Positions 14,452-29,226 of a stretch of DNA of 29,368 nucleotides are shown in pieces (positions within the stretch are counted from its first letter, which is position 1; every line of letters begins with the position of its first letter). Under the pieces are notes generated by a model, which saw only the letters and a list, made by a program, of their open reading frames with translations, made no database searches and was not told where the DNA came from. This DNA comes from a virus. Position numbers and translations under genes: made by a program. The stretch covers positions 1 through 29,368 of the IMG/VR virus record IMGVR_UViG_3300025276_000149; one strand, 5' to 3'.

Positions 14452-14475
14452 AAAACCCCCAGACCGAAGCCTGAA

Positions 14476-14526
14476 GGTTCTTTTGTATAGAGAAAGGAAC
14501 CGACCAAAGTTCTTTCCTACTGGTCT
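14476..14526 (+). other. Structured repeat element, copy A (hairpin with loop GTATAGAG)
   Basis: Directly after the structural operon. GGTTCTTTT / AAAGGAACC form a 9-bp stem (one G-U) with loop GTATAGAG (14476-14501). The following GACCA pairs with TGGTC (14502-14506 and 14521-14525). The 28-nt core 14480-14507 matches 29197-29226 with one substitution and two single-base length differences. At 29197 the same element forms the leader and ribosome site of a gene; here no ORF follows, AAG stands where the ATG would be, and a terminator lies about 35 nt on. It could be a regulatory RNA, a promoter or a relic leader. Confidence 0.6.
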
Positions 14527-14539
14527 TATATTACAAACT

Positions 14540-14573
14540 AAGCCCCTGGGTCAATCGCCTTGGGGCTTTTTTA
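14540..14573 (+). terminator. Rho-independent terminator of the structural operon
   Basis: AAGCCCC (14540-14546) pairs with GGGGCTT (14562-14568), followed by a T-run to 14572. It faces the plus strand, 89 nt after the last structural gene. On the minus strand the hairpin has only a weak T tract. Confidence 0.8.
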
Positions 14574-14585
14574 TTACATAATTTC

Positions 14586-15005
14586 CTAGATTGTTTTTAC
14601 AAATATAGCCTTGTCTTTAGGTATATCGAAGAACTTTTCGCCAAACCTTATCTTTGCATTTGGAACCTCAACCGTAGGGCTTTCCTGAACTACTTTCCTG
14701 CTGATGATGGCAGCATGCGTTAGGCTGTTATTGAACACCATAAATTGCGTAGGCTTAGTCAGGAACTTAGCTTTTCGCACAGGGATGTGGATACTATCGT
14801 ATTTAAGATCAATGCCATGCCAGACGGTCTTAACCTCAACCTCGCAGTAGAAACGCTTGCCATCACGCTCTACCACTAGGTCTACCCCGAACTCATCTTC
14901 GTTGTCTGTGCAATCGTAGCCGTTGTAGGACCAAAACCGTTTAGCCGTTTCTCGTGCTACTTCATCATACTTTGCGAAGTCTTTGCTCTGAAATACTTTG
15001 TACAT
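14586..15005 (-). CDS. PD-(D/E)XK-type nuclease-like protein
   Basis: The frame is open to 15056, but the ATG at 15005 has GGAGG 5 nt upstream and is chosen, giving 139 residues. DEFGVDLVVERDGKRFYCEVEVKTVW (37-62) has the D...ExK arrangement (Asp42, Glu57, Lys59) of the PD-(D/E)XK nuclease fold. The rest is small and folded. It is the last gene of the leftward replication operon and its start lies inside the preceding RMF-like gene. Possible roles are recombination, host DNA degradation or restriction-like cleavage; the exact substrate cannot be read from the sequence. Confidence 0.6.
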   Translation of the reverse strand: MYKVFQSKDFAKYDEVARETAKRFWSYNGYDCTDNEDEFGVDLVVERDGKRFYCEVEVKTVWHGIDLKYDSIHIPVRKAKFLTKPTQFMVFNNSLTHAAIISRKVVQESPTVEVPNAKIRFGEKFFDIPKDKAIFVKTI

Positions 15006-15168
15006 CAATACCTCCACTCTTGTAGAATGCTGAGTTAAAACCTCTGTGCCATTCACGGTTATAGTGACTGTTTAGGCGATAGGCACAGACAAGCTCCCCG
15101 TCCAAGAAGGCGTTGAAGCCCTGCATGAACGGAGAGTCTGCTTCTATGCGGTTTACCGGATTGGACAT
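14965..15168 (-). CDS. RMF-like small protein
   Basis: A 67-residue protein. The pattern SPFMQGFNAFLDGELVCAY, then N-x4-REWHRGFNSAF, resembles ribosome modulation factor (A-x2-x-G-x-x-A...G...C-x-Y...W-x-x-G-x-x-x-A). That factor dimerises ribosomes in stationary bacteria, and RMF-like domains occur in phages. It overlaps the end of the RNR gene by 16 nt and the next gene's start by 41 nt. An effect on host ribosomes is only a suggestion; the match is to spacing and a few residues. Confidence 0.55.
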   Translation of the reverse strand: MSNPVNRIEADSPFMQGFNAFLDGELVCAYRLNSHYNREWHRGFNSAFYKSGGIDVQSISEQRLRKV

Positions 15169-17147
15169 GCGCCTGTCGCACAGTCATCACCCTCAAGCTC
15201 CAGCAAGCTGTTACCTTTATCTAAGTCCACCGGAAGTAGCGTTTTAAGATACTTAGTGTAGTCCTCTTTCGTCACAACTTCCTGCGGAAGATACTCGTAG
15301 CCAAGGTCTTTGGCTGTTTTAGTAGGATCGTTGCGGTAGATGAAAGATACGCCTATGTAGGTGTCCCAGTTCTCCATGATCCAATCAATGATTGTAGGGA
15401 TTTCTGTCGGATCATAGGAGATCGTCACAGAACAGTTATGATCCACGTAATTATCCATCATAAGCTTGTAGCGATCTAATTGAAGCACGGCAGATTCAAG
15501 ATTAACGAACTTACCGTCTACCTCTGTGAATTTAACATCCTCATAGGCTACTGGGAAGGTAATCAGGACGCTCTCAGGCTCTCCAGGCTTCTTTATAACC
15601 TTGTAGTTTGAAGCCTTCATTACAGGTACAATAGGATCATGCTTGGAGAAAGTTACATTGTTGAACATATACTTTCCTAATGGTCGATGCACCCCCTCTG
15701 TAGTATCCATGATCTTTGACAGGCTTCCGCTTGGCTTGACCGTGGTAACAAGTTTAGGGCGGGGGAGCAGTAAAACGTCTGCCATGTTGTTTGCACCACG
15801 TTGCGCCCACGAGCGGAGGTTCTGTAGTCGGTTAGGAGCTTCTTCACCGTGGAAGTCTAAGAACTTAACAATGCCTGTGAGGCCTACACCACAGAGCCTA
15901 AGGAATTCATTCAACTCATGCCATGACCGTTGAAGCACACCATCATCAAGGTTCACACAGGTCTGGCGATAGTTTGCCCGTGATATAATCCACATGGCAC
16001 GTTCTAATGCAGACAGGTCAGATAGGAATTTACCCAAGTCAATTTCTACTAAATTACAGTGGCTCTTATTTCCCAATAATATTTCTGCGCATGGGTTTAA
16101 ACCCTTGAAATATGGTGCTTTTTTAAGTGCAGCCTCTGCATTGATGAAGCCAGGTTCGCTCCCGCCTGCCTCAACCATCCTAGCAAAGATATGGCCCATT
16201 TCCCATTTAGTAGGCTTCTTAGAGAACACGATGGAGTTGTTAGACTGTTGTCTGTGACCGTTGTCATGCAGCCAGAAATCTTTCTTTGCTGAAATGAATT
16301 CATCAACTTCGCTATCCTCAATTGGCATCAACGCAATCTCTGCAGAGCGGCGTGAAGAGAGTGTGGTTCCTAAATGGTTTAGTAGATCTAAAATATCCAT
16401 TCTAGTCAGCAGTTGCCCTGCACGTTTGTTCATCAGCTTACAGATGTTTGTAAATGCAATTGAGATCGTTTCGTCACCGGATGAAATCCAGCCATATCCT
16501 CTCAGACGTTCTCCTGCAGGGCGGATCTCTGTGAAATCCAATACCAATCTGTCTATCGGTTTTTTAAGTGCAAGTATCTTACCTACAGATTTAGCCCATG
16601 CCTCTGCGCTGTCACCAATTTTGATGTGAGTTACCTTTTTTTGGTCTACGTCAATAAACGTACGCTCTTGATTGTCAGGAAAACCTTTATCAGTTCTGGT
16701 GGATCTAATGATCTCTAACTCTATCTTCTTAGCAAAGCCATTCAGTGTACCTCTAATAGGCTCAAAGCCCACCCCACAGCCCTGAAGAAGCAGCCAGAAT
16801 TGGTCTACTACATCATGCACTGTTTCAGTCCGGCTGAAGCTACAATTGAACTGAGAAGCTTCACGGGTCTTAGCTACGTTTGTACCGCCTAGCCAAAGAG
16901 TTCGGCCCGATACTGTAGCCTTACGGTCAACCATAAGGTCACGAAGCTCATCTAGTTCTGCCAGTTCGTCTATGTTTAACTTTTCATTCTTAGCCCTTTC
17001 CCAGAGCCATTGTTGATGTTCAATCACACGGCCTATGGTCTGTTCCCAAGTTTCAAATACAGTACCTTCATCATTCAGCGGTCGATTGTATGTGCGGCGT
17101 GTAATTACACTAGCCCGTGTGGAAAATTTCTGTTTATTACTGCTCAT
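15153..17147 (-). CDS. Adenosylcobalamin-dependent (class II, monomeric) ribonucleotide reductase
   Basis: A 664-residue protein. The ATG at 17147 is used because GGAG lies 6 nt upstream; the GTG at 17159 lacks a site. FNCSF gives the substrate-site Cys102. NPCAEI (351-356) provides Asn351, the thiyl Cys353 and Glu355; HCNL gives Cys364. The C-terminal CATGAC (656-661) is the swinging dithiol pair with the same spacing as in the Lactobacillus enzyme. GCGVGFEP and KPSGS are family motifs. It reduces ribonucleotides to deoxyribonucleotides, using B12 rather than a second subunit and without oxygen dependence. This feeds phage DNA synthesis together with ThyX and MazG. The host must supply cobalamin. 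Confidence 0.93.
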   Translation of the reverse strand: MSSNKQKFSTRASVITRRTYNRPLNDEGTVFETWEQTIGRVIEHQQWLWERAKNEKLNIDELAELDELRDLMVDRKATVSGRTLWLGGTNVAKTREASQFNCSFSRTETVHDVVDQFWLLLQGCGVGFEPIRGTLNGFAKKIELEIIRSTRTDKGFPDNQERTFIDVDQKKVTHIKIGDSAEAWAKSVGKILALKKPIDRLVLDFTEIRPAGERLRGYGWISSGDETISIAFTNICKLMNKRAGQLLTRMDILDLLNHLGTTLSSRRSAEIALMPIEDSEVDEFISAKKDFWLHDNGHRQQSNNSIVFSKKPTKWEMGHIFARMVEAGGSEPGFINAEAALKKAPYFKGLNPCAEILLGNKSHCNLVEIDLGKFLSDLSALERAMWIISRANYRQTCVNLDDGVLQRSWHELNEFLRLCGVGLTGIVKFLDFHGEEAPNRLQNLRSWAQRGANNMADVLLLPRPKLVTTVKPSGSLSKIMDTTEGVHRPLGKYMFNNVTFSKHDPIVPVMKASNYKVIKKPGEPESVLITFPVAYEDVKFTEVDGKFVNLESAVLQLDRYKLMMDNYVDHNCSVTISYDPTEIPTIIDWIMENWDTYIGVSFIYRNDPTKTAKDLGYEYLPQEVVTKEDYTKYLKTLLPVDLDKGNSLLELEGDDCATGACPIR

Positions 17148-17161
17148 ATTACTCTCCACTA

Positions 17162-17488
17162 TTATCGATTATCGCCAGAGCCGCCGAGGACGCCACGGGC
17201 CATTCTGCTGTTTAATTTATCCAAATTCATCTGAGCTATTTTCTCTAGGCCGTAGCCAAGATCTGTCGCAAGGTTGGAAACATACCACTGCACATCACCC
17301 AGCTCTGCTGCCATTGCTGCACGAAACTCTGGGGTGATAAGGCCGTTGCTATCTCGAAGCAGCTTCTTGTACTTACCTGCTAATTCACCGACTTCAGAGC
17401 AAAGGCCCATCAGGCAATATACGATGGTATCAGCATCATCGTAGATGGCAGTCTTGCCTGCCTGCGTTTGGTAGTCTTCAAATCTCAT
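17162..17488 (-). CDS. MazG-like nucleotide pyrophosphohydrolase
   Basis: A 108-residue protein. The all-alpha NTP-PPase metal site is visible as SEVGE (Glu32, Glu35) and AELGD (Glu62, Asp65), the ExxE...ExxD signature. MazG-type enzymes hydrolyse (d)NTPs to NMPs and pyrophosphate; in phages they are thought to recycle or clean nucleotide pools or act on ppGpp. An in-frame ATG at 17500 is possible, but AGG abuts it; the 17488 start has AGGA 11 nt upstream. The start overlaps the DUF3310 gene by 11 nt and RNR follows 14 nt on. Confidence 0.85.
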   Translation of the reverse strand: MRFEDYQTQAGKTAIYDDADTIVYCLMGLCSEVGELAGKYKKLLRDSNGLITPEFRAAMAAELGDVQWYVSNLATDLGYGLEKIAQMNLDKLNSRMARGVLGGSGDNR

Positions 17489-17726
17489 GCGTGAGTTCAT
17501 CCTTGCTATGTTCTATTAGAATTTCGGTGCGTAGGCGGTTGATGTACCAGACAGCTTTGTCCAGATCTTCTACGCCGCCTTTATACTCGTGCCGCCAGAC
17601 GTATTTCAGGACATTTCCGTGGCAGTATTTGCGAAAGCCTTCTGGGCCTAACGCCGCCCGGAGAGCATCAATACACTCAATACCGGACTGATTATAATGC
17701 CGGGGGTTGTTAACCATGTCAGCCAT
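17478..17726 (-). CDS. DUF3310 family protein
   Basis: An 82-residue protein with the family's layout: NNPRHYNQSGIECIDAL (6-22), FRKYCHGNVLKYVWR (31-45) and EDLDKAVWYINRL (53-65). DUF3310 is common in phages. T7 gp1.7, a nucleotide kinase, carries a related domain, so a part in nucleotide metabolism is likely. Context agrees, with MazG next and RNR after that. The start overlaps the previous stop (TAATG), with AAGG 9 nt upstream. Confidence 0.85.
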   Translation of the reverse strand: MADMVNNPRHYNQSGIECIDALRAALGPEGFRKYCHGNVLKYVWRHEYKGGVEDLDKAVWYINRLRTEILIEHSKDELTHEI

Positions 17727-18046
17727 TAGTGCGGCCTTTTCTTGCCATTTATTGGGACAACCTTTGATCCGTTGATGGCATCAACTAATTTTTCATCTGG
17801 CTCAAAAGTGAAGTCTTGCTCTTCAAGCTCATCCGCCATTGCAAGAGCGCTACCGACAGTCGCAGCTACATTGGGTCCCACCTCTGCCATCATCTGCATT
17901 CCTCGCAGCATGAAGCATAGATAGTCCTGATCATCTTCATCAAAATCTTGGTCAAAGGACGCAAACCCAGAGGCTACAGGATTGCCTTCCTTGTCCAGAT
18001 TTACGACCACAGCTATGCTGTTTGGTTCGAGATCTTCCGCTTTCAT
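17726..18046 (-). CDS. Acidic hypothetical protein of the replication operon
   Basis: A 106-residue protein, strongly acidic (ASFDQDFDEDDQDYLCF, then ADELEEQDFTFEPDEK) and mixed alpha/beta in appearance. GAGG lies before the ATG. The start overlaps the nuclease stop (ATGA) and the stop overlaps the DUF3310 start, so it is translated with them. No family recognised. Acidic small phage proteins often act by binding host proteins, but nothing specific is visible. Confidence 0.65.
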   Translation of the reverse strand: MKAEDLEPNSIAVVVNLDKEGNPVASGFASFDQDFDEDDQDYLCFMLRGMQMMAEVGPNVAATVGSALAMADELEEQDFTFEPDEKLVDAINGSKVVPINGKKRPH

Positions 18047-18396
18047 TTCTTAGTCCTCTTCGTTAATTTGAAAAAGTGATCTGCATCTAAAACCGCTAAC
18101 GGTTTTCTTTGATCTGCTTTGATAATAGCCAGAGGCGTAGCGCCTTTAGGGCAGTTCGCTGTGGCCTGCTCCATCACCTTGTAGATGGCGTTTTTAGCGT
18201 TGTTCTTGCACTCCACAGAGTATGGAAACAGGCGTCTGGCAGCGGGTGAAAGAAGCAAATCTTCACCGCCTGCCCCCATCGATGTTGAGCGTACGTCGCC
18301 ATCTTCTAGGCTTGGGAAAGTGGAGTAGAGCCTGTCTCTCACCCATTGCTGCAGACGCCTGCCTTTGGCCTTTGCAGACTGCGGTGTAATCGCCAT
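18043..18396 (-). CDS. PD-(D/E)XK endonuclease (resolvase-like)
   Basis: A 117-residue protein. KAKGRRLQQWVRDRL (9-23) is a basic N-terminal helix. SMGAGGEDLLLSPAAR (39-54) and FPYSVECKNN (57-66) supply Asp46 and Glu62-x-Lys64, the PD-(D/E)XK core. This compact form recalls phage Holliday-junction or single-strand endonucleases, and its place after the exonuclease is like that of T7 gp3 relative to other DNA enzymes, although gp3 is not claimed as homologue. It starts immediately after the exonuclease stop. Confidence 0.75.
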   Translation of the reverse strand: MAITPQSAKAKGRRLQQWVRDRLYSTFPSLEDGDVRSTSMGAGGEDLLLSPAARRLFPYSVECKNNAKNAIYKVMEQATANCPKGATPLAIIKADQRKPLAVLDADHFFKLTKRTKK

Positions 18397-19263
18397 TTAT
18401 AGTTCCACACCTTCATACTGGACGTACCAATTCATCTTAGGCTCTTTAGCCTTAGACCGGGGCTGTGGAAGTAGCTTCGCCGTGGGCCAACAGGTTTTCT
18501 TAAAGTCGCAGAAACTACAGTTCATGCCTAGTTTCTTAGATCCTGTGAACTTACGGTTGAAGAAGTCATCAACCGGTTCAAAGCAGCGCTCAAAGGCCCA
18601 ACCCTCTTTTAGTGCTGTGGCTTTCATCTTAATATCTGCAATTACTTTATCCTTCTCTGCGTCTGAGAAGTCTGCATCGACAACAACCACTTGTCCGGTG
18701 CTTTTACACACGACAATCCAGCCACCGGTGTCGAGATCCTGGGCAACGGAATAGCCGACAAGCTGCCCGATATATCCGAAAGGATCATCTGACTTTAGAG
18801 CGTCCAGACCTTTCTTCCATTTCAGGTCAAAGCTATATGGTGCAGAGCTTTTGATATCATAAACTTTGTTGTCGATATGGATATCATCTTCGCCCTTGAT
18901 GATAGTGTCGCCCAGATCCAATGATATTTTAGACTTACCGCCAGTGATGTCGGCTTTGGCAATCTTCAGCAGAAGATCCATGATAACTTCTATTGCATCA
19001 CCGTGCATCATCCGCATTATAAAGTTGTAGTCTTTACGCTCTGGTACAGCGCCACTTTTAGCCATCTGTAGCTGGCAAAGACTTTTACCCATGTTGGAAG
19101 CTCGAAGACGGAATTCATCATCCCTGCGGGTGAATTGGCGGCGTAGAGAGGCTTTTAGATCCTCCCCTGCCCTTTCAATCCAAGCATCATCAATTTCCAG
19201 CGTGTCGCCTTCATTGTTTGATAGCTTTTCCATTACCGCATGGAGTTGAGGCTGCAGTTTCAT
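18397..19263 (-). CDS. PD-(D/E)XK exonuclease with Cas4/AddB-type Fe-S cysteines
   Basis: A 288-residue protein. RecB-family nuclease motifs appear in order: HGD (87-89), GEDD (124-127), DIKSS (Asp136, Lys138) and QLVGY (Gln167, Tyr171). Four cysteines, Cys63 near the N-terminus and Cys249, Cys252 and Cys258 at the C-terminus (NCSFCDFKKTCWP), match the split 1+3 arrangement that holds a 4Fe-4S cluster in Cas4, AddB and Dna2. It probably resects DNA ends for recombination or degrades host DNA, in the position T7 gives to its gp6 exonuclease. It overlaps the SSB-like gene by ATGA. Confidence 0.85.
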   Translation of the reverse strand: MKLQPQLHAVMEKLSNNEGDTLEIDDAWIERAGEDLKASLRRQFTRRDDEFRLRASNMGKSLCQLQMAKSGAVPERKDYNFIMRMMHGDAIEVIMDLLLKIAKADITGGKSKISLDLGDTIIKGEDDIHIDNKVYDIKSSAPYSFDLKWKKGLDALKSDDPFGYIGQLVGYSVAQDLDTGGWIVVCKSTGQVVVVDADFSDAEKDKVIADIKMKATALKEGWAFERCFEPVDDFFNRKFTGSKKLGMNCSFCDFKKTCWPTAKLLPQPRSKAKEPKMNWYVQYEGVEL

Positions 19264-20105
19264 GCCACTTCTTCGAAGTCAGCGTCCAAACTATCAATTG
19301 CCGTCATTGCAGCGCCGTCGATAGAACCCTCGGTGATAGCCTTCATGTATTGGCTATCGATGTACTTGTTTTCTGCACGAATACTTTCAGCAAACACAAT
19401 ACTAGTATCACGGACTTCTTTTGTGAAAGTAAGTACGTTACTTAGATCCGGTTCATACTGGAACGTATACCAAACCACTGAGCCGTTTTCGTTATATTCT
19501 GAAGTAAGTTTAGCTTCATAATTATATAGATGATGACCTTTCGGAATCTTTTTAACGAAACCGTTATAGAAACCGCCATAAGTGCTGTTTTTGTGAAACA
19601 TGATGCAGGGTTCGTTTTCATAAACGACTTCTTCACCGTCTTCAGTTTTACCGCTGTAAGAGACTACGCCACGGACAATACGATGCTGCATAGCCCTCCA
19701 CTTTTTGGAAACCTCTTTGTCCATCTGCTGACGATCATCCCACGATGGCATACCGCAGGCAATTGTACCAAGGATGTCACGGGCTTCGTCTTTGTATGGA
19801 TTTAACACAGCGATACTTTTATTAACGAGAGTACGCTTGCCATCAATATCATCCCAGTTAAAATACTGGACGTGGCTAGCCAGTGGGCGAAAGGTTACAC
19901 TCTCTGCATAAGCAGTTTTGTCGCTACCTTTGAGGTAAAAGCTTCCTTGAGGTATAGGCTTTTTAGTGTCTTTATTCACTGACTTAGCGTTAATTCTTAA
20001 TTCAGGAACTCGTACAATTGAAGACTCCCCACCTGAAACTGCTGTCCCAAGGATTGCCGCCAATTCTTCCATTTCTTTGCTGTCTAGTGTTGATAGATCG
20101 TTCAT
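19260..20105 (-). CDS. Probable single-stranded DNA-binding protein
   Basis: The ATG at 20105 (MNDLSTLDSKEMEELA) is chosen over 20156 because AAAGG lies 9 nt upstream and a promoter sits between the two, giving 281 residues. The body is beta-rich and aromatic (VQYFNWDD, GGFYNGFVKKIP, VVWYTFQYEP) and the protein ends in an acidic tail (DSLDADFEEVA), as in T7 gp2.5-like SSBs. It lies between polymerase and exonuclease, the usual place for a phage SSB. No sequence family is recognised, so the call rests on tail, composition and context. Confidence 0.6.
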   Translation of the reverse strand: MNDLSTLDSKEMEELAAILGTAVSGGESSIVRVPELRINAKSVNKDTKKPIPQGSFYLKGSDKTAYAESVTFRPLASHVQYFNWDDIDGKRTLVNKSIAVLNPYKDEARDILGTIACGMPSWDDRQQMDKEVSKKWRAMQHRIVRGVVSYSGKTEDGEEVVYENEPCIMFHKNSTYGGFYNGFVKKIPKGHHLYNYEAKLTSEYNENGSVVWYTFQYEPDLSNVLTFTKEVRDTSIVFAESIRAENKYIDSQYMKAITEGSIDGAAMTAIDSLDADFEEVA

Positions 20106-20134
20106 GTTTTTGACCTTTGTTATGTGTATTACTA

Positions 20135-20163
20135 TTGTGGCATAACTAAGTGGCACAAGTCAA
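20135..20163 (-). promoter_or_regulatory. Promoter of the SSB-to-nuclease operon
   Basis: On the minus strand TTGACT (20163-20158), overlapping the polymerase stop codon, then an 18-nt spacer and CACAAT. The spacer contains the CTTAGTTA form of the shared box. The expected start is about 20-25 nt before the ATG at 20105. The -35 is near-ideal, the -10 is moderate. Confidence 0.6.
20142..20153 (-). promoter_or_regulatory. TAACTAAG box, copy 2 (putative phage operator)
   Basis: ATAACTAAGTGG on the plus strand, inside the spacer of the leftward SSB promoter. Relative to its promoter it is inverted compared with copy 1. Confidence 0.5.
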
Positions 20164-22313: not shown

Positions 22314-22489
22314 GCCGTAAAACCTGCCAACTTAGCAGCGATTTTAATCTGAATGGAATTAAGCGATTGGATTAAAGATTGCTGTTCATCAAGTAGCTGC
22401 TGAAGACTAGCAAACTTCTTATCCGCTCTTTCCTGATCCTCTTTTTTAAGCTGTTCATAATGTTCACGGAGATCGGTTTCATTAAGCAT
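22310..22489 (-). CDS. Small coiled-coil protein, 59 residues, coupled to DNA polymerase
   Basis: Begins MLNETDLREHYEQLKKEDQE and continues as a single predicted helix rich in Gln, Leu and Ile, ending AAKLAGFTA. AGAGGG lies 7 nt before the ATG. It overlaps the upstream gene by 8 nt and the polymerase start by ATGA, so it is well supported despite its length. Heptad-like leucines suggest a coiled coil. Its coupling to the polymerase invites a role as a small replication accessory, but no family is recognised. Confidence 0.7.
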   Translation of the reverse strand: MLNETDLREHYEQLKKEDQERADKKFASLQQLLDEQQSLIQSLNSIQIKIAAKLAGFTA

Positions 22490-22790
22490 CCGCTGACCCT
22501 CTCAGCTTGTGCAAAAGGTCTGTTGGCGTGTTGTAGTAAGACCACCAATGGTGGCCGTACCGTATCCATTTTTGTTGATTGAGGTTTGCAAAATACTTGT
22601 TGTCTATTTTTACACCACCGTGCGTGTATATTATCCCATAACCCCCAACTTCCATGAATTCATGCAGGTTTTTTAGTTTCTTTAAGGTTTTAGTTTCGGT
22701 TCGATTATAGCTTTCGTCAGACCTGGTGGCGATTTTAGTACGCCTGATAGCGTCTTTAACATCTTGCAGTGTGCAATCGGAACTAAGCAT
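22482..22790 (-). CDS. Hypothetical protein, 102 residues
   Basis: The ATG at 22790 is preferred to the GTG just before it because GGGAGG stands 5 nt upstream. Residues 7-40 are basic and helical (VKDAIRRTKIATRSDESY). The C-terminal half is aromatic and glycine-rich (GGYGIIYTHGGVKIDNKYF, then WIRYGHHWWSYY). No catalytic motif recognised. It shares one base with the methyltransferase stop and overlaps the next small gene, so it belongs to the operon. Confidence 0.65.
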   Translation of the reverse strand: MLSSDCTLQDVKDAIRRTKIATRSDESYNRTETKTLKKLKNLHEFMEVGGYGIIYTHGGVKIDNKYFANLNQQKWIRYGHHWWSYYNTPTDLLHKLRGSADA

Positions 22791-23314
22791 CACGTCCTCC
22801 CAAAGAATTTTGTGTTATAACTTTCGTTATGACGGTCAAATAAATACCAACAGGCGTTGTCTTTGCCTGCGGTCTTGTCGAACCACTTAACCCTGCCGAT
22901 GGACACGATCTTACGAAGCCGGGGCAGAAACGGAGTAGACTGTCTGGTGTGTATCCAATCGCTATCAAACAGCAGCCAGGTTGGGCGTAGGTCTGAAAAG
23001 GTATAAATCATAGGATGTAAGATGGACCGCTCCCACGGCGGATTGGTGATGATCATATCAGCAGAACCTAGATGGCTTTCCTCCAGCACCAAGGCATCCA
23101 GCACATCAATATCGCCGCTCTGCGGTTCAATGTCATACGATTTGGTGCAGCTTAGTCCCATAGCCACAAGGCTTCGGATCAGCGCCCCATCACCAGCACA
23201 CGGCTCACAGAAGTTCTGAGTTTCCTGCAAGAACGGACGAAGCGGCTCAACAGCTTCTATCGGTGTTCTATAATAGTCACGGGGCTTTCGCTCAAAGTTA
23301 GATCGTTTACCCAT
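22790..23314 (-). CDS. DNA N6-adenine-type methyltransferase
   Basis: A 174-residue protein. Motif I is CEPCAGDGALI (36-46, the SAM-binding loop) and the catalytic motif is NPPW (91-94), typical of N6-adenine or N4-cytosine methyltransferases. DYYRTPIEAVEPL near the start is common in phage members. It is short, with no clear target recognition domain. It probably marks phage DNA against restriction or regulates packaging or replication. No cognate restriction enzyme is beside it. The start overlaps the helicase stop (TAATG). Confidence 0.85.
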   Translation of the reverse strand: MGKRSNFERKPRDYYRTPIEAVEPLRPFLQETQNFCEPCAGDGALIRSLVAMGLSCTKSYDIEPQSGDIDVLDALVLEESHLGSADMIITNPPWERSILHPMIYTFSDLRPTWLLFDSDWIHTRQSTPFLPRLRKIVSIGRVKWFDKTAGKDNACWYLFDRHNESYNTKFFGRT

Positions 23315-24531
23315 TATTCTACATACCTGCTGATCTCAGGCTCAATCTGACAGATCACGCAGCCGTGGTAGCCAGAAAGCTTGTTCTTACTGACATTTAT
23401 GAATCTGGTATGGTCAGGATTATCGTCTTCTGAGGTACTATATTTTGCTATGCCTAGAATCAGATCAGCTTCTGCAGCCTTTCCGGTCTTACTGCCCTCA
23501 AGCATACTGAAATCAATACGGGTTTTACCGTCAGCTTCAGCGGAAGCTTGCGAAACACCAAGCAACGCACAGTCGTGTCGTTTGGCTAGTTCCCTCAAAG
23601 AGCGATATAGTTCACGAATACGCTCATGGCTGGCGTTGTAGTTGCCAGCGATAGAAACCTTATCACTTTGATCTATGATTAAAACGTCCGGTTTTATCTT
23701 CTCGCAATAGGCACTGATGGTATCAATATCCCACTCCTGCACGTCCTTCATAATCAGGCGGTCTTTGATGGAAAGATACTTGCTCATAGCCAAATCAGGG
23801 TTGTCGGCTATTTGCTCACGGGTCATGCCACTGCAGGCTTGGATAGCTCTTAGCTTTGTGCGTGTCGTTTTCTCTTCATTGCCAAGATACAGAACCTTCG
23901 CACCTTGCTGGCAGAAGCCGCCGGGACCAGCACAAAGGGATATCACAAACGCTGATTTACCAGTCTCAGGTCGGGCAAATACAATACCAAACTCCGATGG
24001 ACCGATTCCGTAGACGTTACGAGCCAGTGTCTCAATATTGAATTTCCAGCGATTCTCATCAGATGTCTCTGCTAACAGTTCATAAATATCGTCCGTAGTT
24101 GCGTCACCAAACGAGTCGGGAAGATAGCCATCTCTAGTACGCTCCAGCAATGACTGAAGTCTGGACATTGCCGATACGTCACCTTCGCTCATGTTGATGC
24201 CAAGGTTTGCAATATCTCTGCCGATTTCTCTGCGCCACAAAGTTTCAATTACGTCAGCCGCAACATCTGAGTTAATCGGTTCAATTACTTTTAAGTGTTC
24301 GATTACATCACGAAATTCGGCGCTCTCAGATGCAGTGGCGATTGGGTTATCTGCGACCCACAGCGAGTAAAGATCGTCAGGCTTTAAGTCTGTTTCATAT
24401 TTCTTATGTGCAGAGCTTAATAAGTCAAAAAGCTGTCCTGCATCGTCTGAAAATATAGATTTTCGTAGCTTACCTGTTACTGCCGTATAGTTGTCGTTAA
24501 CTAATAATGATTTTATTAATTGTACTTCCAT
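23314..24531 (-). CDS. Replicative DnaB-like helicase
   Basis: A 405-residue RecA-fold hexameric helicase. Walker A is ARPETGKS (186-193) and LGNEE (216-220) holds the catalytic Glu. Walker B is DVLIIDQSD (282-290) and GVSQ (325-328) is motif H3. A short N-terminal domain of about 150 residues replaces the full DnaB collar. Primase is encoded separately upstream, unlike T7 gp4 where both are fused. AAAGG lies 8 nt before the ATG. It opens the operon after the terminator at 24593. Confidence 0.9.
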   Translation of the reverse strand: MEVQLIKSLLVNDNYTAVTGKLRKSIFSDDAGQLFDLLSSAHKKYETDLKPDDLYSLWVADNPIATASESAEFRDVIEHLKVIEPINSDVAADVIETLWRREIGRDIANLGINMSEGDVSAMSRLQSLLERTRDGYLPDSFGDATTDDIYELLAETSDENRWKFNIETLARNVYGIGPSEFGIVFARPETGKSAFVISLCAGPGGFCQQGAKVLYLGNEEKTTRTKLRAIQACSGMTREQIADNPDLAMSKYLSIKDRLIMKDVQEWDIDTISAYCEKIKPDVLIIDQSDKVSIAGNYNASHERIRELYRSLRELAKRHDCALLGVSQASAEADGKTRIDFSMLEGSKTGKAAEADLILGIAKYSTSEDDNPDHTRFINVSKNKLSGYHGCVICQIEPEISRYVE

Positions 24532-24592
24532 GCTCCCTGCCTTTCTTATGTGGCACTTCTAGGGGAGTAGCTATAACAGCGATTAGGAATAA

Positions 24593-24624
24593 AAAAAGCC
24601 CCAATCTTTCGACTGAGGCTTTTT
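24593..24624 (-). terminator. Rho-independent terminator upstream of the helicase operon
   Basis: AAAAAGCC (24593-24600) pairs with GGCTTTTT (24617-24624), with two further inner pairs. On the minus strand the hairpin is followed by a run of seven T. It separates the primase and small-gene unit from the helicase operon. It may also work on the plus strand. Confidence 0.8.
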
Positions 24625-24652
24625 AATTTATTAATGTATTTAAAACGGTAGT

Positions 24653-24856
24653 TTAGCTATTTCTAAACTTCATAGATTTAATGTCAGGCGTTTGATCGCC
24701 CCGGCGTTCCTTCATATCCACTTGATGAAAAACAACACGTTTGTTGCCTTTTGTGATTGATGCTATCGCCTCTTGAAGTTTAGTCTGCTCCTCAGCAGCT
24801 ATTAAAAAGTCATCTTCGAATTGGTAGTCAATGACTACGATACCTCTGCATTTCAT
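24653..24856 (-). CDS. Small hypothetical protein, 67 residues
   Basis: Begins MKCRGIVVIDYQFEDDFLIA. Two beta-like segments flank an acidic helix (AAEEQTKLQEAIASI), and the end is basic. AAAGGA lies 9 nt before the ATG. A 6-bp hairpin (AGTCGC/GCGACT, 24875-24896) stands directly upstream, its loop containing TCCT, which could pair with the AGGA of the binding site. This hints at translational control. No family recognised; a terminator follows within 30 nt. Confidence 0.65.
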   Translation of the reverse strand: MKCRGIVVIDYQFEDDFLIAAEEQTKLQEAIASITKGNKRVVFHQVDMKERRGDQTPDIKSMKFRNS

Positions 24857-24908
24857 CGTCTTTTCCTTTTTTTAAGTCGCTATAGGAGATGCGACTGATA
24901 CTTTTAAC

Positions 24909-24923
24909 GTAGTGACCCACTAC
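24909..24923. promoter_or_regulatory. Perfect 6-bp dyad, putative operator
   Basis: GTAGTG-ACC-CACTAC lies about 55 nt upstream of the 67-residue gene and touches the end of the 43-residue gene. On the minus strand it includes GTCACTACGTTAA, which differs at two positions from the GTCACTTAGTTAA around the integrase promoter box. Confidence 0.4.
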
Positions 24924-25055
24924 TCACACATTGATCTCGGAACCATGAGTTCCGCCTTTCACATTGCACTGGCTTTTACCAGAGTTTTTATACAGGTGGT
25001 CCGATAGGCTTGTGCCGCCAACTTGTGACGGTCTGCCCGTAGAATCCAGAGGCAT
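24924..25055 (-). CDS. Microprotein, 43 residues, function unknown
   Basis: Begins MPLDSTGRPSQVGGTSLSDH and ends KGGTHGSEINV. AAGG lies 5 nt before the ATG at 25055 and the frame runs to a TGA at 24924-24926. The sequence is polar, glycine- and serine-rich, with one Cys and two His (DHLYKNSGKSQC, GGTHG), and looks like a real small protein rather than chance translation. It lies alone between primase and the 67-residue gene. No family is recognised. Confidence 0.55.
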   Translation of the reverse strand: MPLDSTGRPSQVGGTSLSDHLYKNSGKSQCNVKGGTHGSEINV

Positions 25056-25187
25056 ACTTGCCTTGAATTAAAAGCCCCGATGTATTGATATACGGTCTAA
25101 AAAAAGTACTTTTTATTTTACTGATAGAAGACATTACGGTTAACTTAATTCCTTTCTGAGCGTATGTATAGTCTCGCCCGTCCTTGT

Positions 25188-25958
25188 TTATTTTACTAGG
25201 TTTCTAATTTCACCGCAGGATAAATACTTCAAATCATGTTTGGTTAGTCTGATATTACAATCTATACTTATCTTTCGTAGGAGCATCATTGCTTTAAGTG
25301 ATGCGTCATTGTCAAGTATTAAAGTGCATTTATTATATTTAATGATGGATTTTGCTATGGTCTTTGTTATGTTTGTTCCAAGTAGCGCAACACCTACCAA
25401 GTTTTCGACGTTACTGACGGCACAGGCCGATGCTACATCTTCGACCAGGACGGCATGTATACCTTCTCCTACATGGATTCCTCCAGATACATCTGCGTAA
25501 GTCCACCACTTTGACCTAACAGGCCTCAAAGAGCGTCCCACAGCGCCTGTACCATCTTTATTATAAAAGAGTACTCTATCCTCTTTAACAGCGTACCTGA
25601 TCGCTATGTCACCTCGTTCAAAGGCTGCAAACGAGTTTACTGACTTCAGATATTCAATTGCAGCGGGTACGTTGGTTATCCGAGTCGTAATCTCAGGGAT
25701 AGCTCCATATCTTTGTTTCTTTCTGCCGGTGGCTTGCCCAGATAGATACTGCTTTGCATTTGCAACACTGCGACCTTCGATATGAGAGCCACGCACATTG
25801 CAGGATGCTCTGTAACAATTCCAGACTAGCTTGCCGTCAAACTTATCTATCGTAAATTTATTCTTGCCGCCACAGAATGGGCAGTCCATCGTCTTTCGAT
25901 CCCCGTCTTTTAACCTGACGCTTTTAATTACGGAGATCTGATCTTTGTAGCTATACAC
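25188..25958 (-). CDS. DNA primase with zinc-binding and Toprim domains
   Basis: The start is taken as the GTG at 25958, which overlaps the upstream stop (GTGTATAG) and has AGGA 9 nt before it. A GTG at 25985 is open but has no site. In the longer numbering a zinc motif DCPFCGG ... NCYRASC (Cys35, Cys38, Cys57, Cys62) precedes a Toprim domain with VLVEDVASA (Glu182) and LILDNDASL (Asp225, Asp227). This matches the T7 gp4 primase half, here a separate protein. It makes RNA primers for the helicase-polymerase system. It lies 24 nt from nothing but non-coding sequence downstream. Confidence 0.85.
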   Translation of the reverse strand: MYSYKDQISVIKSVRLKDGDRKTMDCPFCGGKNKFTIDKFDGKLVWNCYRASCNVRGSHIEGRSVANAKQYLSGQATGRKKQRYGAIPEITTRITNVPAAIEYLKSVNSFAAFERGDIAIRYAVKEDRVLFYNKDGTGAVGRSLRPVRSKWWTYADVSGGIHVGEGIHAVLVEDVASACAVSNVENLVGVALLGTNITKTIAKSIIKYNKCTLILDNDASLKAMMLLRKISIDCNIRLTKHDLKYLSCGEIRNLVK

Positions 25959-26190
25959 GTTTGGTGATCCTGAACACCTCACCACAATCTGGGCATAGCT
26001 TCTCGAATATATAGGATCGTTCTGAGTCTATTATTGTACAGCCGGTTAATAGAACCGCTTCGGTCAGATATGCAGCCACCACGGCAGGCTTGCCTTTTAC
26101 TACGGTTACGAAACATTGCTCACATATGAATGTTTTATCTGTTTTAAAATCATCGGCTCCTACAAGCTCTTTGTTTAATTTTTGTGCCAC
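25951..26190 (-). CDS. Small zinc-ribbon-like protein
   Basis: A 79-residue protein starting at a GTG (26190) with GGGAG 8 nt upstream. Two CxxC pairs, CEQC (23-26) and CPDC (66-69), flank a beta-rich middle, as in a zinc ribbon, and the last residues are basic. It is the first gene of the primase unit and overlaps primase by 8 nt, so it may help primer synthesis or bind nucleic acid. No family recognised. Confidence 0.65.
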   Translation of the reverse strand: MAQKLNKELVGADDFKTDKTFICEQCFVTVVKGKPAVVAAYLTEAVLLTGCTIIDSERSYIFEKLCPDCGEVFRITKRV

Positions 26191-26242
26191 TATACTGCTC
26201 CCTTACTTGATAGTATTACTTAACCCAGGGCGGGTCATCCGC

Positions 26243-26270
26243 AGGATAAAGTGATTCGTATATAAGTCAA
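26243..26270 (-). promoter_or_regulatory. Promoter of the zinc-ribbon/primase unit
   Basis: On the minus strand TTGACT (26270-26265), a 16-nt spacer and TATCCT (26248-26243). A TAACTAAG box lies 14 nt upstream of the -35. The ATG-equivalent GTG at 26190 is about 45 nt after the expected start. Confidence 0.55.
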
Positions 26271-26283
26271 GCACATTGTTAGG

Positions 26284-26295
26284 TGGCTTAGTTAT
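26284..26295 (-). promoter_or_regulatory. TAACTAAG box, copy 3 (putative phage operator)
   Basis: ATAACTAAGCCA on the minus strand, upstream of the primase-unit promoter. It keeps the TAACTAAG core but not the TGG/TGA end of the other copies. Confidence 0.4.
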
Positions 26296-26355
26296 GTTCG
26301 AAGTCATTATTTAGCCCTGTAACATATTGTTTTAATTAGGTACTACCAGACCGGA

Positions 26356-26389
26356 TTGGTCGTTGGTTCAAGTCCGACCGGGCCTACCA
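26356..26389 (+). other. attP: attP candidate: 3' end of a tRNA gene
   Basis: These bases fold as the 3' part of a tRNA: variable-loop-like TTGGTC, T stem GTTGG/CCGAC (one G-U) with loop TTCAAGT, then acceptor strand CGGGCCT, discriminator A and CCA. No anticodon arm, D arm or 5' acceptor strand precedes it, so it is not a tRNA gene. A tRNA 3' fragment in a phage with a tyrosine integrase is the classic attP core, which restores the host tRNA on integration. The tRNA species cannot be fixed; the tail resembles tRNA-Ile types. Two other genes lie between it and the integrase gene. Confidence 0.75.
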
Positions 26390-26453
26390 CACCTTGAAAA
26401 CAAACGATTTTTTTCCCTGAGTATAGGAAAGTTACCAAAAGTTGCCGTTTTAG

Positions 26454-27146
26454 TCAAATTAACGAATCCTCAAACCAATTTTTCATTGAGAATATCATTG
26501 GAAATACCGATTCGAGAGCCGTCTTGATCTCACGAGCGAGAACAACATGCTCCCATTGGGTTACATTTTCATCATCACGGACTTCTAAATAATGAAGCCA
26601 TGAACGTAGCGTTCCATTGACGTAAAGTCGGCTCATTGTCAGACCTTCCGGTAGGACAACACGAGCGCATTCTTTAGCCACACCGCTATCTATCATTTCC
26701 TTATAAGCAGCCGTAGCTTGCTCTAGAACTGAATTGGTATTGGTAATGGAAGATGCTTCGATATCATCCGACAGATCATCAACAGAGTTCTGGCGATTTG
26801 TTGTATCTTGGCGGCGAAACTCTCGTGGAGTTGTCTCAATCTCACTCGAATATCTCTGCGAAAACTCTTGGAAGCTAAAACTGCGATGCCGTAAAAGTTG
26901 GCGGGTTATATCCCGTGGGGCTTCGACCTCTACGACTGCATTAGCCATCTCAAAGACGGACCAGTGCTTGTTTCGCATGCAGTACTTTAGCAGGCCATCC
27001 GCAGTGTCGTGATTGTCTTGGTTGCTAGGATTGCTGACCCTCGCCGCATATGCAATCAACTCTTCGCTGGTCTTTGCTGATATGTTACAGGTTGGTTGTG
27101 TCACACCTACAATCTTTGCAGACACTTTCATTTCATTTTTTAACAT
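26454..27146 (-). CDS. thyX: Flavin-dependent thymidylate synthase
   Basis: A 230-residue protein. The signature RHRxxSxxxxSxRY appears as RHRSFSFQEFSQRY (86-99). MSRLYVNGTLRSWLHYLEVR and TQWEHVVLAREI complete the FAD and dUMP sites. It makes dTMP from dUMP using methylenetetrahydrofolate and NAD(P)H through FAD. In this phage it complements RNR and MazG in supplying dNTPs. Start codon M1 overlaps the preceding small gene by 14 nt; a second ATG five codons on is possible. Confidence 0.95.
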   Translation of the reverse strand: MLKNEMKVSAKIVGVTQPTCNISAKTSEELIAYAARVSNPSNQDNHDTADGLLKYCMRNKHWSVFEMANAVVEVEAPRDITRQLLRHRSFSFQEFSQRYSSEIETTPREFRRQDTTNRQNSVDDLSDDIEASSITNTNSVLEQATAAYKEMIDSGVAKECARVVLPEGLTMSRLYVNGTLRSWLHYLEVRDDENVTQWEHVVLAREIKTALESVFPMIFSMKNWFEDSLI

Positions 27147-27282
27147 AGTCAGTCTTTCTTAGTTCAAATCTCACCGCTTGCATCATGTCTATTAATTTCT
27201 CAGTTAGAATTTGACTTGGCTTACCTGTTATGCGCTGGAGTTCTTTTTCCAGCGCTTTTCGGGCTTCATTTACTGATGTCAT
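27133..27282 (-). CDS. Small helical protein between integrase and ThyX, 49 residues
   Basis: Begins MTSVNEARKALEKELQRITG and is charged and helical throughout. GAGG lies 4-5 nt before the ATG at 27282. It overlaps the 3' end of the integrase gene by 17 nt and the thyX start by 14 nt, so all three are probably read in one message. No family recognised. Its place beside the integrase makes an excisionase-like role thinkable, but there is no winged-helix signature. Confidence 0.6.
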   Translation of the reverse strand: MTSVNEARKALEKELQRITGKPSQILTEKLIDMMQAVRFELRKTDYVKK

Positions 27283-28393
27283 GCAGCCTCGCTCCCTCTG
27301 GAGTTACAGGAACCTGTTTAGCGAACCGTTTGTTTACCGCAGCCCCAGCTAACTTCGGGGTCTTGCGTACATAAATAGCCAACACATCCATACTTTTGTG
27401 TCCGGTAACACTACGGAGTTCTGAATTTGTGCAACCAGCTTCTGCCATCTCTGTGGCCCCGCTCCTTCTTAGATCTCGCAACTGAAGGTGTTTCGGTAGC
27501 TTTGCTGCAGTACGAATAGCTCCGGTCTTTTCTGCATAAAGCCAGCGATTATACGGTTTACCCGTGTTTTCATTATACATAATGACATCATGCCAGTTGC
27601 TTCCGGCCTGAGCCTTCGTTAACCGGTCTTTGAGACGTGGGCTTGCAGGAATTTCCATCCATGTCTTGGTCTTTTCTTGCTCAAAACCAAATACCTGTTC
27701 ATGCAGGGTGCTCCAAGTTAGCTGTCGCATGTCGCCAGGCCGCTGGCAGAGATCGTAGCAAAGCAAAGCTATTGTACCTATGGATCCCATCCCCATTTCA
27801 TCTGCCTTATCTACAAACGTATGTACCTGTTTTTCTGTCCAGACGATAGTACGGTCATCCGTTGCTTTTAGGCCCATGCCTTTAAAAGGAAAGGTTTTAA
27901 CGTAACCTAGACGGTCACCTACGTTCCAGATTTTCCTTAGAACCTTGCAAGTCATGTTTGCGGCATGAGGGCTTGTGTTCTTTTTAATCTGGGCAACAAG
28001 CTCCTCTGCCTGCTCCACAGTGATATTGCGAGAAGTCATATCCCCGAGAGCTTTTCTTGATGTACCAATTCGAAGTACCAAAGCTCTGTTAAGTATATCT
28101 TTGTATGTCCGTTTTGAATTCAAGGATAAATTATCCCAAGCTGCGGTCTTCTTGTAGGCAGCTACAAGTCCGAACACACTGTCTTCTTGTATATGAACTT
28201 GACGCTTAACAGTACGTTTATAATCTCTGTATTTATCAGAAATGCTGTAAGCTAACGCCTCGGCTTTGCTATAATCATCGAATTGATCATAGCCTACTTT
28301 TAGAGCCTGTCTTACATAGGACGGCGGATTTACGAGCCATTTGACCGCACCAGACTTCAAAACTTTCCTGCGTAAATACTTTACATGTGCCAT
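27266..28393 (-). CDS. int: Tyrosine recombinase (phage integrase)
   Basis: A 375-residue protein. Residues 1-65 resemble an arm-binding region and residues 70-175 the SAM-like core-binding domain (SLNSKRTYKDILNRAL). Catalytic residues: Arg218 in LCQRPGDMRQLTW, the box II segment LRDLRRSGATEMAEAG (Arg309, with Arg306 where His is usual), His332 in TGHKS, and nucleophile Tyr341 in AIYVRK. GGGAGA lies 5 nt before the ATG. It integrates the genome at a host site, here probably a tRNA gene. Confidence 0.93.
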   Translation of the reverse strand: MAHVKYLRRKVLKSGAVKWLVNPPSYVRQALKVGYDQFDDYSKAEALAYSISDKYRDYKRTVKRQVHIQEDSVFGLVAAYKKTAAWDNLSLNSKRTYKDILNRALVLRIGTSRKALGDMTSRNITVEQAEELVAQIKKNTSPHAANMTCKVLRKIWNVGDRLGYVKTFPFKGMGLKATDDRTIVWTEKQVHTFVDKADEMGMGSIGTIALLCYDLCQRPGDMRQLTWSTLHEQVFGFEQEKTKTWMEIPASPRLKDRLTKAQAGSNWHDVIMYNENTGKPYNRWLYAEKTGAIRTAAKLPKHLQLRDLRRSGATEMAEAGCTNSELRSVTGHKSMDVLAIYVRKTPKLAGAAVNKRFAKQVPVTPEGARLHDISK

Positions 28394-28430
28394 ATCACTC
28401 TCCCTAACTGGCTTTCTAGTACATGAATCA

Positions 28431-28459
28431 CCTTAACTAAGTGACACTACAAGAGTCAA
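28431..28459 (-). promoter_or_regulatory. Integrase promoter
   Basis: On the minus strand TTGACT (28459-28454), then after 17-18 nt a weak TTAAGG or TAAGGT -10. The shared CTTAGTTA box spans the junction of spacer and -10. The ATG is about 30 nt further on. The -10 is poor, so an activator may be needed. Confidence 0.5.
28433..28444 (-). promoter_or_regulatory. TAACTAAG box, copy 4 (putative phage operator)
   Basis: TTAACTAAGTGA on the plus strand, within the leftward integrase promoter, in the same relative orientation as copy 2. Confidence 0.5.
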
Positions 28460-28474
28460 TTACTAAATTAATAC

Positions 28475-28503
28475 TTGGAATCAGTTGATGGCGGTGTTAC
28501 AGT
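28475..28503 (+). promoter_or_regulatory. Candidate promoter of a short plus-strand RNA
   Basis: TTGGAA, 17-nt spacer, TACAGT. It is a moderate sigma70-type match, positioned about 50 nt before a strong plus-strand terminator with no ORF in between. Confidence 0.4.
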
Positions 28504-28509
28504 AATTAA

Positions 28510-28585
28510 AGCAGGCACTCTCCAGGTCTGTTCTTTCTCCCTACTACTTGCCCCCCGTTGAGAAATCTTCGGGGGGTTTTGTTTT
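28510..28585 (+). ncRNA. Candidate small RNA of about 75 nt
   Basis: The region lies between a moderate promoter and an intrinsic terminator on the plus strand and holds no coding sequence. The terminator stem CCCCCCG/CGGGGGG is unusually strong for an otherwise empty interval, which suggests a short transcript. It contains a pyrimidine-rich stretch (TCTGTTCTTTCTCCC) that could pair with purine-rich ribosome sites, for instance the GGGAGA before the integrase ATG. No known RNA family recognised. Confidence 0.4.
28551..28580 (+). terminator. Strong rho-independent terminator, plus strand
   Basis: CCCCCCG (28551-28557) pairs with CGGGGGG (28570-28576) over a 12-nt loop and is followed by TTTTGTTTT. 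There is no T tract in the minus direction, so it serves a plus-strand transcript, though no plus-strand gene precedes it after 14451. Confidence 0.8.
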
Positions 28586-28595
28586 GATTAGGCAC

Positions 28596-28619
28596 AAAAA
28601 AAGGCCCCAAAAAGGCCAA
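28596..28619 (-). terminator. Terminator of the two-gene minus-strand unit
   Basis: On the minus strand GGCC-TTTTTGG-GGCC followed by seven T (28602-28596). The stem is short, extended by A/T pairs. It lies about 25 nt after the stop at 28643. Confidence 0.55.
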
Positions 28620-28621
28620 TT

Positions 28622-28649
28622 TTTACTCGCACGTCAAACACATTATACC
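28622..28649 (-). repeat. 28-nt direct repeat, copy 1
   Basis: Starts TTTACTCGCACGTCAAAC and ends ATTATACC, with two variable bases between. It matches 28981-29008 at 26 of 28 positions. This copy overlaps the stop of the 59-residue gene. Confidence 0.75.
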
Positions 28650-28822
28650 TTAATTATGGCTACAGTGTTGTATGTATCTTGTAAGTCCGGATGAAGAGGT
28701 ACAGCTAGCCCACAACCTTCTAAAACAATTACCGCCTGATCTTGTCGCCGTTGCTCTGCATTCTCACTGGCATCTATTAATGCTTCCCCGATCTGTCTTG
28801 CCTTATTTATATCTAATATCAT
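28643..28822 (-). CDS. Small hypothetical protein, 59 residues
   Basis: Begins MILDINKARQIGEALIDASE; a helical first half is followed by a beta-like second half (QAVIVLEGCGLAVPLHPDL). AAGGGG lies 8 nt before the ATG. The start overlaps the stop of the preceding small gene (ATGA), so the two are translationally coupled. The stop lies inside a direct repeat. No family recognised. Its position in a control-like region next to the integrase suggests an early or regulatory role. Confidence 0.6.
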   Translation of the reverse strand: MILDINKARQIGEALIDASENAEQRRQDQAVIVLEGCGLAVPLHPDLQDTYNTVAIIKV

Positions 28823-28953
28823 ATCAGCACCCCTTGATCTAAGGTGTTGATATTAAAGGACTTAACAATATAGGACACACATACCCAACCTCCCCGAAAA
28901 CGCTGTTGCTCGACCTCCCAAGGGTCTTGCTCTTTGTTTATATAATCAGGCAT
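28819..28953 (-). CDS. Microprotein, 44 residues, coupled to the next gene
   Basis: Begins MPDYINKEQDPWEVEQQRFR and continues GGWVCVSYIVKSFNINTL. The upstream GAAAGA is a weak ribosome site. The stop overlaps the start of the 59-residue gene (ATGA). Looks like a small folded protein with a Trp-rich centre. No family recognised. Confidence 0.5.
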   Translation of the reverse strand: MPDYINKEQDPWEVEQQRFRGGWVCVSYIVKSFNINTLDQGVLI

Positions 28954-28967
28954 TTTGAATTCTTTCA

Positions 28968-28996
28968 ATTTAAAGTTAAATTTACTCGCACGTCAA
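28968..28996 (-). promoter_or_regulatory. Candidate promoter of the two-gene minus-strand unit
   Basis: TTGACG inside repeat copy 2, 17-nt spacer, TTAAAT. The predicted start leaves a leader of only about 8 nt before the ATG, so either the first gene is nearly leaderless or the true start is the TATAAT further upstream in the repeat (29006-29001). Confidence 0.4.
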
Positions 28997-29008
28997 ACGT
29001 ATTATACC
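28981..29008 (-). repeat. 28-nt direct repeat, copy 2
   Basis: Second copy of the 28622-28649 repeat, 359 nt away, on the upstream side of the two small genes. Read on the minus strand it contains GGTATAAT and GTTTGACG, i.e. both -10-like and -35-like hexamers. Confidence 0.75.
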
Positions 29009-29196
29009 CACAATATCTATGCCGATATTCAGGACATAAAGCATACTCTTACTGATCCTAAAAAAAGGCAATAGTTTTTTCAAAAAATATATTTTGCAAA
29101 AAATAAAATTAACTTGAATTATATAAAATAACTCTTTTTATTAATGGCACAGCTAACAGCCTGCAGATTAACCACCTGCAAAAACCAGGCAGCTAG
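29009..29196. other. AT-rich intergenic region upstream of the rightmost gene
   Basis: No ORF supported. Contains A/T tracts and TATA-like sequences around 29113-29125 that could be a plus-strand promoter (TTGCAA near 29093, TATATA/TATAAA near 29120), then nested short inverted repeats (GCCTG/CAGGC, TGCAG/CTGCA) at about 29158-29190 before the leader element. Confidence 0.4.
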
Positions 29197-29226
29197 CTTT
29201 TTGTATAGAGAAAAGGAATCGACCAA
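29197..29226 (+). promoter_or_regulatory. Structured repeat element, copy B (leader of the rightmost gene)
   Basis: Near-identical to 14480-14507. CTTTTT and AAAAGG form a 6-bp stem with the same loop GTATAGAG, and the AAGGAA of the stem is the ribosome site of the ATG at 29226. It may be a control hairpin hiding the ribosome site, or a phage-specific promoter core (TATAGAG). Confidence 0.6.

Follow-up and report, generated by a model that had tools for sequence, protein, structure and literature searches.

Why would a phage carry nearly the same short sequence at the 3′ end of its late operon, outside any gene, and again directly in front of the start codon of an early gene? The question arises from the 29.4-kb virus fragment IMGVR_UViG_3300025276_000149 (the window, meaning the whole stretch of DNA analyzed), which belongs to an HMO-2011-type phage. 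The two copies, and the gene that follows the second, are located as follows.

14480-14507, plus strand: copy 1, within the late 3′ non-coding element, placed from the sequence
29197-29226, plus strand: copy 2, which forms the leader of the first rightward early gene with its ribosome-binding site; the phage has six start sites of this kind in all
29227-29368, plus strand: start of this GP88-family early gene (254 aa), which runs past the window and is complete on contig L063 (4314-5078, minus strand)

Comparison with related phages shows, at the level of sequence, a shared motif that is anchored at the AUG of early genes, is specific to each phage, and co-varies with the late non-coding element. 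As an explanation we favor, with about an even chance of being right, a recognition site of a phage-encoded RNA-binding regulator, of which the late RNA would carry a structured copy, probably as a decoy.

The repeat and the phages compared

The sequence-only reading that first pointed to the pair described one substitution and two single-base length changes, and realignment agreed: positions 14481-14507 and 29199-29226 are 93% identical over 28 nt, with one gap. Its assignment of the copies held as well. Copy 2 is a gene leader, the open reading frame (ORF) from 29227 matching Pfam GP88, and copy 1 follows the last late gene, whose stop is at 14451, and precedes a terminator, with no credible ORF. 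Judged within the window alone, the pair is borderline, with a self-BLAST E value of 0.001 and a pair at least equally good in 2 of 40 shuffled windows. An exact 15-mer scan of viral contigs gave 118 stretches, nearly all of them due to chance, and the full element was found beyond the window's own two copies only in L063, which stems from the same phage. Neither copy matched a covariance model of Rfam 15 up to E = 1. It is the sequences of the relatives that settle that the repeat is real.

L063 overlaps the window end over 6.2 kb at 99.8% identity and is overlapped in turn by contig G018 at 99.9%, so that the genome could be continued rightward beyond the window. HMO-2011-type phages fall into ten subgroups according to a 2022 survey (PMC9038755), and subgroup III has four cultured members, whose hosts are two Roseobacter strains (PMC9038755). 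Judging by helicase similarity and hosts, these four would be CRP-3, CRP-212, CRP-235, and CRP-738; Roseobacter phage CRP-235 has a helicase with 75% identity to the one in the window. The relatives compared were these four HMO-2011-type phages and environmental contigs, two of which (G016 and L123) come from one metagenome and were treated as one phage by assumption.

A start-site motif that differs from phage to phage

The motif is not confined to a pair but is common, in each phage, to unrelated early genes, where it stands just 5′ of the AUG. In the window phage, AAAGGAACCGACCA-AUG occurs at six early genes, and the six L063 early starts with the common leader read AAAAGGAATCGACCAATG, AAAAGGAACCGACCAAATG, AAGGGATCGACCAAAATG, ATAGGAACCGACCAAATG, AAAAGGAACCGACCAGATG, and AAAAGGAACCGACCAATG. 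GP88 and DUF932 proteins are the products of two of these genes; the remaining ones code for small proteins of no known family. The late non-coding copy of the window phage reads AAAGGAACCGACCAAAG, and the relatives have the following sequences.

CRP-235: start TAAACTTGAAAAGGAAATGACCAAATG; late element TAAACTTGAAAGGGCAGTGACCAAACC
CRP-212: start TTCTAACTGGAGTAAATGACCAAATG; late element ATTCTAACTAGAATGGTGACCAAACC
CRP-3: start ATCTAACTTGGAGACTGACCAATG; late element ATCTAACTTGAAAAGTGACCAAAC
CRP-738: start AACCAACTGACGAAAGGACCAATCAG; late element AACCAACGAACAAGGTGGACCAATC
Environmental contigs G009, G010, and G005, with the variable 5′ half alike at start and late copy: TCTAAAACGAA, TTAAAACCGAA, and CTAAACTGAAAAAGG, respectively
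Further contigs with the variable 5′ half alike, G016/L123 and G012: CTAAACACAAA and CACACAAAACC, respectively

CRP-3, CRP-212, and CRP-235 have one host strain in common and carry different motifs. The early site spans the Shine-Dalgarno sequence and the nucleotides directly before the AUG, and its GACC box ends 0 to 4 nt from the AUG at 31 early starts. Within a phage, only the 20 nt that directly precede the AUG are conserved, at 76% identity compared to 39 to 45% further upstream. This distribution bears on two proposals of the sequence-only reading, namely a processing site and a phage-specific promoter whose core would be TATAG. TATAG is indeed present in both window copies, but it is missing from the other five early leaders of the phage and from the matching place in the relatives, no conserved sequence lies further upstream, and the distance to the AUG is fixed. 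We give a promoter or a processing site a very small chance.

In CRP-3 (MK613345.1), the annotated starts of gp60 and gp55 seem to be misplaced; the motif indicates other ATGs (e.g., ATCTAACTTATGGAGACTGACCAAATG for gp60). A mini-ORF, AUG ACC AAA UGA, that lies over some start codons is unconserved and was dropped.

Early starts and the late element vary together

The late element of each phage was used as the query in a scan of its own genome, with non-self matches taken at a score of 25 or more. Thirty of the 38 matches end at an ATG with an ORF, compared to 4 in all for 120 shuffled queries; G012 adds none under the strict distance rule, its matches ending 11 to 14 nt before the ATG. For copy 1 of the window, too, the best non-self matches in the DNA of its own phage are early start codons. 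The similarity of start sites to late elements averages 26.9 for cognate pairs versus 15.5 between phages, and not one of 200,000 random re-pairings reached the true pairing, a result that holds without the GACC box as well. The start sites in this matrix were chosen partly by the GACC box, which affects the level of similarity and not the contrast between cognate and foreign. Common ancestry contributes to this contrast; co-variation beyond ancestry is suggested because the loci are far apart and would drift independently if they were unconnected. Conservation due to the ribosome site alone, which the sequence-only reading had named as the result that would speak against it, does not describe the data: the variable parts of the motif track a non-coding copy many kilobases away.

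It is imaginable that no regulator is involved: a strong start-site cassette would have been copied from one early gene to another, recombination or ribosome preference would have held the copies alike, and the late element would be the relic of such a leader. The motif includes the Shine-Dalgarno sequence, the element is short, and the late element resembles an early leader minus its gene. However, the motif differs among phages of one host, which ribosome preference would not yield, and the gene-less late element is kept in every subgroup member examined, with a hairpin that covaries. We consider this explanation quite unlikely.

A covarying hairpin in the late element

The late element and its parts in the window are these.

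14456-14576, plus strand: putative structured RNA with which the late operon ends, from an alignment of 16 relatives and a covariance model
14494-14515, plus strand: hairpin 2, conserved across the family (loop CGACCAAA at 14501-14508, between arms 14494-14500 and 14509-14515)
14476-14501, plus strand: hairpin of the sequence-only reading (arms 14476-14484 and 14493-14501; loop GTATAGAG), strong here and unconserved in relatives
14541-14573, plus strand: intrinsic terminator hairpin and T-run, with a GGTCAA that is invariant in the 16 relatives

The relatives align over about 130 nt, in which a C-rich hairpin right after the last late stop is followed by a linker, hairpin 2, an AU-rich stretch, and the terminator. 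On the window, which is within the training set, the covariance model matches positions 14446-14576 with 102.8 bits. The alignment shows hairpin 2 to be a covarying hairpin: its stem has two-sided changes at 9 of 9 pairs in the relatives, 73% of its cells are paired (53% when shuffled, 25 to 53% when slid), and RNAalifold recovers its inner helix from the full alignment. Its loop in the family is (U/C)GACCAA.

Both copies had been predicted to form a hairpin with one common loop. This is true of copy 1 (−10.7 kcal/mol, z −3.5) but not of copy 2 (−2.7 kcal/mol, z −0.2), where the hairpin differs from the minimum-energy fold in context. Copy 2 folds no better than shuffles, and a leader devoid of significant structure argues against the suggested RNA thermometer. 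The loop GTATAGAG is found in no relative and was rejected both as a conserved loop and as a promoter core; 20 of 100 shuffled windows contain the octamer by itself two or more times. The proposed search of relatives for covarying stem bases was answered by the adjacent hairpin with the (U/C)GACCAA loop rather than by the predicted one; in the window copy, the two hairpins compete. The suspicion of a shared regulatory element at the RNA level emerges strengthened, and the suggested protein-binding hairpin comes near to the explanation we favor, but the start-codon motif and the adjacent hairpin are conserved in place of the specific hairpin and loop.

With the covariance model, the element was detected in those contigs of the subgroup that cover the region, the majority of which belong to the training set, and nothing convincing was found in CRP-1, CRP-2, CRP-345, CRP-603, CRP-207, HMO-2011, and HTVC033P (best match 18 bits, E 0.7). 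Among the genomes examined, the element is restricted to the CRP-3/212/235/738 group.

Several further observations concern the element. The terminator GGTCAA (window 14552-14559) is invariant in the 16 relatives though the opposite stem strand varies, and on the minus strand it reads TTGACC, near the GACC box. A kissing contact of the GACC loop with the terminator GGUCAA was considered and found no support: a change from UGACC to CGACC occurs without a matching change in GGUCA, and with both invariant, covariation is uninformative. Diverged second copies lie about 520 to 560 nt upstream of the late element in G005, G006, G010, and L127/L128. A second diverged copy, whose loops include GTAACTAA, is located right after the last late gene in L127, L128, L138 (9435-9556), L141 (5429-5551), and L142 (8063-8185). 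Between both late-element copies, G005 and G010 encode a 58-aa paralogue of the first leftward protein. In the window, an intergenic hairpin region before the helicase gene (24555-24717) matches the late-element model weakly (25 bits) and Rfam BSnc120 below threshold. Weak matches are present at corresponding places in CRP-212, CRP-738, and G012; the region is probably a conserved terminator.

Possible antisense action of the late RNA

If the late RNA were a small RNA that base-pairs with the start sites of the early genes and represses them in this way, it would resemble the CI RNA of phage P4 and the C4 RNA of phage P1, which act by complementarity to an early leader. Like these, it would be a small phage RNA related to early-gene leader sequence. 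Furthermore, the hairpin arms are complementary to Shine-Dalgarno regions (GGUUC with GGAACC in the window phage), and the AU-rich stretch ahead of the terminator recalls Hfq-type small RNAs, which have such a stretch in that position. In contrast to the P4 and P1 RNAs, however, the shared sequence is sense and not complementary, and cognate-specific complementarity is absent: the predicted duplex energies have a cognate mean of −14.8 kcal/mol versus −14.5 kcal/mol, and 22% of the re-pairings are at least equal. With this lack of cognate preference, pairing between the late RNA and the early starts is not supported, and we regard an antisense mechanism as decidedly improbable. The own-genome scans gave no convincing off-start match as an antisense partner elsewhere; the only off-start match that recurred, in CRP-212, G011, and G013, reads as primase coding sequence.

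A proposed regulator of early genes and a probable late decoy

The start sites and the late element are alike in the sense orientation, the site keeps its place at the AUG, and no cognate complementarity is seen. These findings argue for a common binder rather than for RNA-RNA pairing, and since CRP-235, CRP-212, and CRP-3 differ in motif within one host strain, this binder would most simply be phage encoded. In our model, a phage-encoded RNA-binding regulator recognizes the site on early mRNAs and, when bound, would control translation initiation of the early genes jointly, most likely by repression through a block of the ribosome. The 3′ element of the late operon holds the same phage-specific site with the start codon swapped for a complementary arm, which places the GACCAA box in a hairpin loop. 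The late RNA, made with the late transcript, may then bind the regulator and serve as a decoy; alternatively, the late element may work in cis, as a site on the late mRNA that determines what becomes of this transcript. From these patterns we infer a separate RNA species, protein binding, the phage origin of the protein, the direction of control, and the decoy role.

The decoy RNAs CsrB and RsmZ display in hairpin loops the motif of the ribosome-binding sites of their target mRNAs. Likewise, by sequence, the loop (U/C)GACCAA holds the box that is found at the early starts; different from CsrB and RsmZ, there is usually one hairpin (two in G012), the motif is another one, and the element is phage encoded. 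For the protein, T4 RegA (and RegB) offers a precedent: it is phage encoded and controls a set of early mRNAs through sites that overlap the AUG or immediately precede it (PMC3014915), and the sites found here on several early mRNAs have this position as well. Whereas RegA sites are devoid of clear sequence conservation, the site described here is well defined, phage specific, and present as a copy in a structured element of the late operon. By analogy, a RegA-like protein acting on the early start sites, together with a late RNA decoy, would be the most economical account.

The chief alternative to an RNA regulator is a system of DNA operators, in which transcription would be blocked by a phage repressor that binds the motif as DNA, both at the early genes and where the late operon ends. 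The model for it is the stoperators of cluster A mycobacteriophages (L5 and relatives), which are asymmetric and phage specific, have one orientation, and co-vary with divergence (PMC6550527). The sites described here agree with them in asymmetry, in a single orientation relative to transcription, and in a phage-specific motif that tracks divergence, and they, too, belong to phages that can be temperate: CRP-3, a cultured member of subgroup III, was shown to integrate (PMC9038755). However, stoperators are DNA sites of about 13 bp that number as many as 30 and are dispersed over the genome (PMC6550527), whereas the sites here are few, not genome wide, and nearly all at early start codons, within 0 to 4 nt of the AUG. 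Furthermore, a covarying RNA hairpin is present in the late copy and lacking from the start-site copies. We hold DNA operators to be unlikely.

Several points weigh against the regulator and its decoy. No RNA-binding domain was found in the candidate small proteins that are conserved in the group and absent from others, and no RegA homologue was matched among the 20 window proteins and 10 early or small proteins scanned against PHROGs or Pfam. The model does not account for the late synthesis of a decoy against a repressor of early genes. Another fold is more stable than hairpin 2 in the copy of the window itself, and in G012 the early starts keep the 5′ half of the motif without the GACC box, while the late loops are GUUACCAC. 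Recombination could also maintain the similarity of short repeats.

Gene content and further shared leaders

The minus strand of the window encodes polymerase A, a DnaB-like helicase, a primase, thymidylate synthase, ribonucleotide reductase, and a tyrosine integrase; the late genes are on the plus strand. A second shared leader, GGTATAATnnGTTTGACGTGCGAGTAAA, is present on the minus strand at 28622-28649 and 28981-29008, upstream of the first leftward gene (59 aa) and again just past its stop, right before a terminator. A pair of this type surrounds the same gene in G005, G016, G017, and CRP-235, and the variants, TTGACGTGCGAGTA or TTGACGCCAGAGTAAA, match within a phage. The pair looks like two operators or like another element that a short terminated RNA has in common with a gene leader.

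At the same place in the early operon, roughly 750 to 870 nt have no annotated gene in CRP-235 (48879-49631), CRP-212 (50166-50938), CRP-3 (48354-49211), CRP-738 (48727-49532), and L063 (about 341-1205). Inside the window ORF 224-1684, a unit of about 156 nt (52 residues) occurs seven times in tandem, at positions 410-1441.

Implications for HMO-2011-type phages

HMO-2011-type phages rank with the dominant marine viruses (PMC9038755), and the main text of the survey makes no mention of promoters or small RNAs (PMC9038755). In the open-access literature, we found no report of post-transcriptional control in these phages or of an element shared by start sites and a late operon, and nothing pertinent on phage decoy RNAs that act on a translational repressor. 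More tentatively, the data may reflect a self-contained post-transcriptional switch in a genus-level group of marine phages, in which operator, decoy, and protein co-evolve and do not cross-react within one host; we see this as possible rather than probable. A conserved RNA element that connects early starts with the late operon at its end would provide a handle on programme switching in HMO-2011-type phages, and the four cultured phages allow it to be tested. As the site and its non-coding copy have diverged jointly between phages of the same host, recognition specificity may be compared directly.

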